Of a stretch of DNA of 64,000 nucleotides, positions 16,989 through 18,257 are shown piece after piece. The DNA is taken from contig NZ_JAPFQM010000001.1 of the NCBI RefSeq assembly GCF_026241205.1, positions 1,364,001 through 1,428,000 on the forward strand, given 5' to 3'. Numbering within the stretch: position 1 is the stretch's first letter; each line of letters begins with the position of its first letter. Both the position numbers and the translations under genes were made by a program. The notes beneath the pieces are model-generated. The model made no database searches, was not told the origin of the DNA, and worked only from the letters and a program-made list of their open reading frames with translations. The stretch is from Thermomicrobium sp. 4228-Ro. Lineage in GTDB: Bacteria > Chloroflexota > Chloroflexia > Thermomicrobiales > Thermomicrobiaceae.

Positions 16989-17795
16989 TTACTCGACGCT
17001 CTCGTCCGTGCCGGGGTTACCGAGTATCTGCTCCCATCCTCGGAGTCCCTCCTCGGTGAGGACGAGCGTGCCACGGGCGATCGCTGTTTCCGCTGGGATT
17101 TCCGTCCGGATCGGGGCCAAGACAGCGACGACGGACGAGAGTTCTCGACGCAATCGTTCGATGCGTTCGCCGGTGACCGCCAGTGTCGATTCATCCAGTT
17201 GCGGAACCACCCACAGGAGGAGCCAGATCGGTCCTTGCCTGCCGGGATAGCGCAGGGTACCGGAGACCGCTACCCGGGCACTGAGCCAGACCTCTGCGGC
17301 CTCGCTGGACAGCTGCAGTTCATCGTAGAAGAGGCCAGGTGTTCCCCACCGGAGCTGGGTCAGCCAGCGGCAGAACATGGTGGGAACGTGTCGCTCGATC
17401 TCTTGCCCGAGTACGAGGAGCGCGAGGCGCTCCTGCTCGCGCACGATCTGCCGGAGCAACACGTTGACACCGACCAGTTGGCCTGTCACGTGTTCGAACT
17501 GGTCGGCCAGCGCGACGACGGCTTGACGGATGGCCGCATCGGCCTCTGCGACTCGTTCGATCTGGTTCGCGACCGTCGTCAAGATCTCGTTCACCCGGCC
17601 TTGCGCTCCGGTCATCTCGCGGAACAGCGTACTGACCTCACGCATCGCCTCGGAGACACCGCGTAGCTGATCGGTGGTTTGCCCCTGAACGCGAATCAAC
17701 TCCTTCAGTTGGTCGACCGTGATCCGGTGCAAGGAGACGATCTCGCGGACTGCATGCTGGATGGCATCGATCGGTGACGAGTGGTTCGGTTCCAC
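16989..17795 (-). CDS. Coiled-coil protein of unknown function
   Basis: 268 residues. The N-terminal half (about 10-125) has long heptad-like stretches (TTDQLRGVSEAMREVSTLFREMTG; VNEILTTVANQIERVAEADAAIRQ) typical of a coiled coil. The C-terminal half is globular, with VWLSARVAVSGTLRYPG and IWLLLWVVPQLDESTLAVTGERIERL; its strand-helix pattern is vaguely like a restriction-type nuclease fold but no D-E-x-K set is clear. No signal or membrane segment. It lies 215 nt downstream of the structured RNA element at 18.0-18.2 kb, on the same strand, so that RNA might be its leader. Function unknown. Confidence 0.65.
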   Translation of the reverse strand: MEPNHSSPIDAIQHAVREIVSLHRITVDQLKELIRVQGQTTDQLRGVSEAMREVSTLFREMTGAQGRVNEILTTVANQIERVAEADAAIRQAVVALADQFEHVTGQLVGVNVLLRQIVREQERLALLVLGQEIERHVPTMFCRWLTQLRWGTPGLFYDELQLSSEAAEVWLSARVAVSGTLRYPGRQGPIWLLLWVVPQLDESTLAVTGERIERLRRELSSVVAVLAPIRTEIPAETAIARGTLVLTEEGLRGWEQILGNPGTDESVE

Positions 17796-18009
17796 GCATT
17801 CCCCCGTTCCCGCTCACATGCCTCGAGGATAGCACGCGTGCTCCTGCACTGTAAGCGAGCGCGGTGAACCAGGAACCGAGCGTTGCACGCGTTTCTCACA
17901 GAAGCGAGCACAACGAGCGGGGAGAAACATTGTACTCCCTGGTCGCTGCAGCGTGCGCCAGGCCCGACGGTGTGCTGCATGGAGGGCAGGCCTTGCTGGT
18001 GGACGAGAC

Positions 18010-18222
18010 AGAAAACGCGACCCCGACGAGCCCTTCGTGTCCCGGCGCGCTCCGCCAGTCTCGAACTCACCCCCTTCCCGGCTCGCGCCGGTCCGGTTGG
18101 AGGTCGATTCTGGTGCCGCCCTCTCGGAGCGGCAGTCCCGGTAGGTGGCTACCGGAACCGGATCGGGCTATCCGGTCTCCCGGATGCCCTGCGACGGTCC
18201 GACGACGACTCGTCGGGATCGC
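18010..18222 (-). ncRNA. Candidate structured RNA, family unknown
   Basis: A well-placed promoter ends 7 nt before position 18222. The predicted RNA begins with a 14-base arm (18209-18222) that pairs with 18017-18030 (13 Watson-Crick pairs and one G-U), followed at once by GTTTTCTGTCT. Inside are four local hairpins read on the minus strand: GGGC-ATCCGG-GAGA-CCGGAT-A-GCCC with a GNRA loop (about 18163-18187), GTTCCGGTAG-CCAC-CTACCGGGAC, TGCCGCTC/GGGCGGCA, and CCGGC-GCGA-GCCGG (18078-18091). The 5' arm can also pair with the TCGTCGTCGG next to it, so two folds compete. It does not show SRP, RNase P, tmRNA or full cobalamin-box signatures. No protein frame is convincing here. Confidence 0.6.
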
Positions 18223-18228
18223 ATCCTT

Positions 18229-18257
18229 ACGATAGCACACCTGTGTCACTGTGTCAA
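18229..18257 (-). promoter_or_regulatory. Promoter of the structured RNA
   Basis: On the minus strand TTGACA (18252-18257), a 17-base spacer and TATCGT (18229-18234). The predicted start is at about 18222, exactly where the closing stem of the RNA begins. The same -10 hexamer is used by the cas operon promoter at 36.3 kb. Confidence 0.75.

Follow-up and report, generated by a model that had tools for sequence, protein, structure and literature searches.

Several classes of free-standing bacterial RNA, among them Chloroflexi-1 (RF01698), the raiA motif and OLE, were found through their conserved structure, are restricted to particular lineages, have no fixed gene partner and were of unknown function at discovery. 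6S RNA (RF00013) is also stand-alone, about 200 nt long and closed by mutually paired ends, and in some bacteria two 6S paralogues are carried per genome. In Y RNAs the terminal stem is conserved and carries a defect in its helix, the interior varies, and several paralogues occur. In transcription-terminating riboswitches, a 5' hairpin and a terminator-forming closing helix are mutually exclusive. In SRP RNA, RNase P RNA and tmRNA, non-native structures are reported to form transiently before the long-range pairing (PMC10687018). The order Thermomicrobiales, mostly heat-loving, has almost no known small RNA biology. For T. roseum, the genome paper gives a count of one small RNA gene on each replicon. 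Neither Thermomicrobium nor Sphaerobacter appears in the main texts of the 26-genome, 50-genome and 104-motif surveys, the three that were compared; a prior description elsewhere is conceivable.

The window is the whole 64,000-nucleotide stretch of DNA that was analysed. It lies on contig C1 of the source genome (G000), which is Thermomicrobium-like and comprises 3.07 Mb in all. Its minus strand carries a free-standing RNA gene, whose existence and stand-alone nature we regard as nearly certain. The features of this copy are listed in Table 1.

Table 1. Features of the RNA gene and its promoter in the window (window positions).
Feature	Position	Strand	Basis
-35 element TTGACA	18252..18257	-	scan and direct reading
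-10 element TATCGT, extended -10 (TGC ahead)	18229..18234	-	scan and direct reading
Structured RNA, type A copy, about 214 nt including start of U tract	18012..18225	-	fold and homologues
P1 5' arm GCGATCCCGACGAG	18209..18222	-	fold and family comparison
UCGUCGG competitor strand for P1 5' arm (alternative local 5' hairpin)	18199..18205	-	fold and family counts
P2 5' strand CCGTCGC	18191..18197	-	covarying helix
P3 hairpin, GAGA tetraloop	18165..18189	-	fold and covariation; lost in g5 type A copies
P2b 5' strand UCCG, encloses P4-P6	18159..18162	-	covariation across genera
P4 hairpin, loop CCAC	18135..18158	-	fold and covariation
P5 hairpin	18114..18134	-	fold and covariation
P6 long hairpin, GCGA tetraloop	18055..18113	-	fold and covariation
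P2b 3' strand CGGA	18051..18054	-	covariation across genera
P2 3' strand GCGCCGG	18042..18048	-	covarying helix
P1 3' arm CTCGTCGGGGTCGC, core near-invariant in family	18017..18030	-	fold and family comparison
T-rich tail 3' of P1, GTTTTCTGTCT, intrinsic-terminator-like end	18006..18016	-	T-run 3' of P1 in nearly all homologues

The locus has its own promoter and a terminator-like end. A reading made earlier from the sequence alone (the sequence-only reading) had reported TTGACA-N17-TATCGT on the minus strand, and direct reading and a promoter scan confirmed it. The spacer is exactly 17 nt, an extended -10 TG is present, and this was the one sigma70-like site in the 721 bp scanned (0.1 in shuffled sequences). 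In the homologue comparison, TTGAC was located at the same distance 5' of the RNA in the 52 listed RNAs, and TAnnnT at the equivalent place in nearly all homologues. The P1 5' arm begins 7 nt past the -10 hexamer, which is the usual distance from a -10 element to the transcription start; the "exactly one helical turn" given earlier for this gap was loose. The two 14-nt arms pair as had been described, at a measured separation of 178 nt rather than 179. The RNA ends pair as GCGAUCCCGACGAG/CUCGUCGGGGUCGC, followed by GUUUUCUGUCU, and the T-rich stretch noted after the second arm was read there. A simple terminator scanner applied to the 3' end saw only a 5-bp stem, because the true pairing partner is 178 nt away.

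Two further sequence features were observed at the promoters. In the promoters of f1 and f3 family copies (e.g. window 18228-18257), the -35/-10 spacer often holds a palindromic GGYCAC-N4-GTGC; no instance of the full pattern was found in the source genome at up to 3 mismatches. Promoters of the f5 family often hold a repeated GTGTACGTA around the -10 element. Both motifs are possible operators.

The predicted minimum free energy of the window copy was -137.8 kcal/mol, compared with a mean of -103.3 kcal/mol for shuffled sequences (z -7.3; 0 of 200 dinucleotide shuffles as low). P1 forms a 14-bp end-to-end helix around an interior of four hairpins, P3 to P6. These are the four hairpins listed earlier, two of them with GNRA loops (P3, GAGA; P6, GCGA). 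An extra helix absent from that list, P2b (UCCG/CGGA), surrounds the three hairpins P4-P6. The P6 hairpin of some copies contains a Shine-Dalgarno-like strand, GGAGGUGA; this was rejected as a small-ORF start, as no start codon lies at a usable distance and the strand is base-paired.

Homologues were sought as the sequence-only reading had proposed, and were found. In DNA searches the RNA was recovered at 78-85% identity within the genus and about 65% in another genus. Covariance model R1, built from seven sequences, gave matches in 22 of the 61 genomes of the order. Model R2, built from 26 sequences, added second copies: apart from genus g3, where one copy was found per genome, well-assembled f1 genomes mostly carry two RNAs, and f3 genomes mostly carry two or three. 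The second copy of the source genome is at G000:C1:703739-703944. These paralogues are diverged, with mostly two per well-assembled Thermomicrobiaceae genome. A pattern comprising the promoter and the 5' arm (with the 3' arm) placed the RNA also in a third family, f5. Here the lower half of P1 is rewritten, with CAGUCCC/GGGACUG in place of GCGAUCCC/GGGGUCGC. R2 also scores the majority of the f5 copies, with E < 0.005 for eleven, and three more were confirmed by eye. Tallied over model and pattern finds, 55 RNAs with both arms were collected from 38 of 61 genomes of the order, in three families. Carriers thus make up about 60% of the examined genomes, including Thermomicrobium and, probably, Sphaerobacter.

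Outside the order, samples of 400 genomes from the phylum yielded no convincing member with either R1 or the pattern. R1 gave two marginal matches there (E 0.003 and 0.009). The pattern matches outside the order had no plausible -10 at the right place and resembled coding sequence. Run on viral contigs, the 5' motif pattern gave 50 matches, which were judged to be chance given its looseness. A plasmid element reading of the RNA was discarded after PLSDB gave no match.

The RNA fold is under selection. The sequence-only reading had named covariation as a check, and compensating changes were found that support the fold. In the 26-sequence alignment, which was fitted to the model and is thus biased towards it, 85.3% of cells were paired versus 32-43% with the partner slid, both sides had changed in 300 cells versus 104.6 in shuffles, and compensation was seen in 55 of 78 pairs. 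A sequence-only MAFFT alignment of seven members gave 53 both-side cells versus 21.7, with 87.3% paired versus 33-41%. When 15 f5 members were folded independently with RNAalifold, both-side changes were seen in 24 of 50 pairs. Across genera, P2b occurs as UCCG/CGGA, AUCC/GGAU, GCCCU/AGGGC and CUCCG/CGGAG. P3 is lost in the type A copies of genus g5 and the interior is enlarged in f3; the interior is therefore modular, whereas P1 and P2 persist. It is scarcely credible that the locus is a DNA-level element or the remnant of a mobile element rather than a functional RNA. Non-syntenic copies and GC-rich inverted repeats would fit such an element, but the compensatory changes keep the fold, the positions of promoter and T-run are conserved, and the copies are very diverged and usually number one or two per genome (up to three in one f3 genome). 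No transposase was noticed at the listed flanks. This reading is largely refuted by the covariation.

Every collected copy is preceded by the same promoter (TTGACA, fixed distance, TAnnnT), and nearly all have a T-run 3' of P1. For f1 and f3 the RNA model by itself recovered the copies; the pattern that revealed the f5 copies includes TTGAC, so their promoter is partly a condition of discovery. Downstream genes, called by a simple composition rule, were convergent in 22 and co-directional in 28 of the 50 copies with a callable neighbour. They are unrelated between clades (a coiled-coil protein, GltB, proximity to glutamine synthetase, BipA, a 2-hydroxyacid dehydrogenase, queuosine salvage), and no conserved co-directional downstream gene was found. 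The copies are non-syntenic, and neighbours change while the promoter travels with the RNA. In the sequence-only reading the RNA was either a stand-alone regulatory RNA or a riboswitch-like leader of the coiled-coil gene. The promoter, the terminator-like end, the changing neighbours and the 22 convergent genes bear out "stand-alone"; "regulatory" is something we infer.

In its general form, the second option is a cis-acting riboswitch or attenuator: a ligand on P2-P6 would favour P1 (terminator), the ligand-free RNA would favour the 5' hairpin (antiterminator), and the downstream gene, here the coiled-coil gene at 16989-17795, would be controlled. We consider this unlikely. In its favour, a terminator-like P1 competing with a second, mutually exclusive fold is how transcriptional riboswitches are laid out. 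The coiled-coil gene is read in the same direction and lies 217 bp downstream; a 2-hydroxyacid dehydrogenase or queuosine-salvage gene follows some f5 copies at 120-220 nt, and g5 copies are found ahead of gltB or close to glutamine synthetase. Against it, gltB is about 780 nt distant, and the convergent and unrelated downstream genes described above do not fit cis control. The reading as a leader of the coiled-coil gene itself was rejected on synteny and orientation: in the sister genomes G022 and G024 some 1.4-1.9 kb separate this gene from the RNA, and elsewhere the locus lacks it.

Some details of the neighbouring genes were recorded separately. Pfam gave no match for the coiled-coil gene (minus strand); an MscS-like channel gene comes next, an order kept in G022 and G024. 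Four f5 copies (L183, L187, L194, L196) are upstream of a queuosine-salvage type gene; PF10343 was tested for L196 and the others are alike by eye. Several other f5 copies are upstream of a 2-hydroxyacid dehydrogenase gene.

The RNA had been called unassigned, and not SRP, RNase P, tmRNA or a complete cobalamin aptamer. Both statements were upheld. A cmscan search of Rfam 15 with the window copy returned nothing at gathering thresholds or at E up to 10, and nine diverse homologues gave nothing on the RNA at E up to 1; this covered RNase P RNA in the window copy and homologues. The SRP RNA of the source genome is at G000:C1:665300-665399, and RF00169 gave no match on the present RNA. With ARAGORN, the window yielded two tRNA-Ser at 35 kb and no tmRNA. 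In S. thermophilus, the published C-type rnpB occupies 1710922-1711286 (PMC7191817). On the 2.74-Mb contig G017:C1, which is probably S. thermophilus, the RNA copies are at 2139569 and 2147965, away from rnpB. By RF00013, 6S RNA was undetected at the RNA locus, in the source genome and its genus, and in genera g1, g5 and g6. In genera g3 and g4, and in many f5 carriers of the present RNA, it was detected at a separate locus, so the two are different genes. Separately, the absence of an RF00013 match in g1, g5 and g6, despite its presence in related genera, would mean that 6S there has diverged or been lost.

A very diverged housekeeping RNA (6S, SRP, RNase P or tmRNA) missed by the Rfam models is very unlikely. 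The missing 6S matches in the source genome, g1, g5 and g6, a length within the 6S range and the paralogy known for 6S fit this explanation; it is opposed by the separate 6S genes of g3, g4 and f5 carriers, by the SRP locus at G000:C1:665300, by the position of rnpB relative to the copies of G017 (PMC7191817; probably the same species), by the lack of tmRNA in the window and by the fold, which is branched with four hairpins and is not a long hairpin with the central open-complex-like bubble of 6S. By cmscan, separate loci or a missing match, 6S, SRP, RNase P, tmRNA and the cobalamin aptamer were each rejected.

The 5' arm can also pair with the sequence next to it, as had been reported. In the window copy, CCGACGA of the P1 5' arm can pair with UCGUCGG (18216-18210 with 18205-18199). 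In f1 and f3, CGRUCC of the 5' arm can pair with GGAYCG just downstream, and 93% of cells are paired over 34 distinct sequences; the R-Y position is GC in 14, AU in 13, GU in 4 and other in 3. In type A copies of the source genus this position is A.C, and the CCGACGA/UCGUCGG hairpin takes the role instead. Most f5 copies have GGAGC/GCUCC, and the exact pairs of the local hairpin differ between clades. The partner strand is also the P2 5' strand, so the local hairpin excludes both P1 and P2. A rough tree places 7 changes in one of its two columns and 4 in the other, with one branch in common; given so few independent changes, and with one well-covarying pair, the support across the family for two competing folds, as earlier proposed, is moderate. 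By analogy with the known folding RNAs, we prefer to see the local hairpin as a transient folding intermediate rather than as one side of a ligand-driven switch.

Within P1, the core CCCGAnGAG/CUCGUCGGG (also written CCCGA-n-GAG/CUC-G-UCGGG) is near-invariant: across 52 RNAs its sequence hardly changes, whereas the pairs of the outer P1 covary freely. Position 12 (n) mostly faces G; it is G.G in 34 of 52 and a standard pair in 18 of 52. Sequence conservation inside a helix suggests recognition of the core by a partner, although it could be due in part to terminator function rather than binding. A Y-RNA-like particle, in which a Ro60/TROVE-type protein would bind a terminal stem with a conserved helix defect and the inner arms would vary among several paralogues, is another reading; the stem with its mismatch, the variable interior and the multiple copies would be as in Y RNAs, and there is a superficial GGUCC(C)GA similarity. 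It is nevertheless most improbable, since no adjacent Ro gene was noticed at any locus, the RNA has no tRNA-like module and the Rfam Y-RNA models gave no match.

A short RNA element of 86-90 nt was also observed (L150:4943-5028, equal to G000:C6:222942-223027, plus strand; orthologues L144-L147). It is hairpin-rich, its closing helix GGCCCCGACGAU/AUCGUCGGGG is followed by a U-run, and it is kept in five genomes of the genus Thermomicrobium. In the T. roseum megaplasmid it is at NC_011961.1:12680-12772, unannotated in the table that PLSDB distributes. Rfam gave no match to it, and its P1 has CCCGACGA/UCGUCGGGG in common with the large RNA. In the f5 RNAs, GCGGGG (mostly UGCGGGG) occurs in two different hairpins and is near-invariant in both (e.g. 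L178, L189, L196), as if a putative binding site had been doubled.

The conserved fold, promoter and terminal helix imply a biological role. Building on the established gene, ends, conserved fold, paralogues and lack of a fixed neighbour, the best overall explanation, to which we attach somewhat better than even confidence, is an own-promoter RNA gene whose stepwise folding closes P1 as its terminator and whose product is a trans-acting regulatory RNA or RNP. RNA polymerase would start at the RNA's own sigma70-type promoter. The nascent 5' end may first fold as the local hairpin, masking the P1 5' arm, and hairpins P3-P6 would form next. The new 3' arm would then displace the local hairpin and close P1, with P2 and P2b stacked inside. 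As P1 followed by U's would be an intrinsic terminator, the event that closes the RNA would also end and release it. The mature RNA of about 210 nt most probably acts in trans, as a structured regulatory RNA or, probably, an RNP. Its near-invariant P1 core, G.G mismatch included, would be a binding module shared by the paralogues and probably read by a protein; where a genome has two or more paralogues, each would owe its specificity to its variable hairpins. P1 would close the RNA, terminate its transcription and serve for recognition. The sequence analysis found neither a protein partner nor a target. The families share no single loop sequence, and a simple base-pairing sRNA model is weakened by this.

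An improbable extension is a switchable class of stand-alone RNA. Here a multi-branched sensor would let the contest between 5' hairpin and P1 decide the RNA's own termination or maturation, a dedicated protein would read the G.G-containing P1, and the paralogues would give separate outputs. The RNA family is uncatalogued and new at the family level; its mechanism may be of a known kind.

Set beside the described systems, the RNA from the window has a branched four-hairpin interior where 6S has a bubble in a long hairpin, and cmscan gave no match between them. Its possible resemblance to Y RNAs and the Ro RNP would be one of architecture, with no matching consensus. Its 5' hairpin and closing helix may be mutually exclusive, as in a transcription-terminating riboswitch; it differs in lacking a consistent downstream gene, in its often convergent neighbours and in having no known aptamer. 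With SRP RNA, tmRNA and RNase P RNA, which are not homologous to it, it would share long-range pairing after transient local structure; in the present RNA the long-range helix is apparently also the terminator. It differs from Chloroflexi-1, the raiA motif and OLE in fold and sequence, with no Rfam match. Like those orphan classes it was recognised by a conserved structure and has no fixed gene partner, and as far as searched it is restricted to its own lineage, the Thermomicrobiales.
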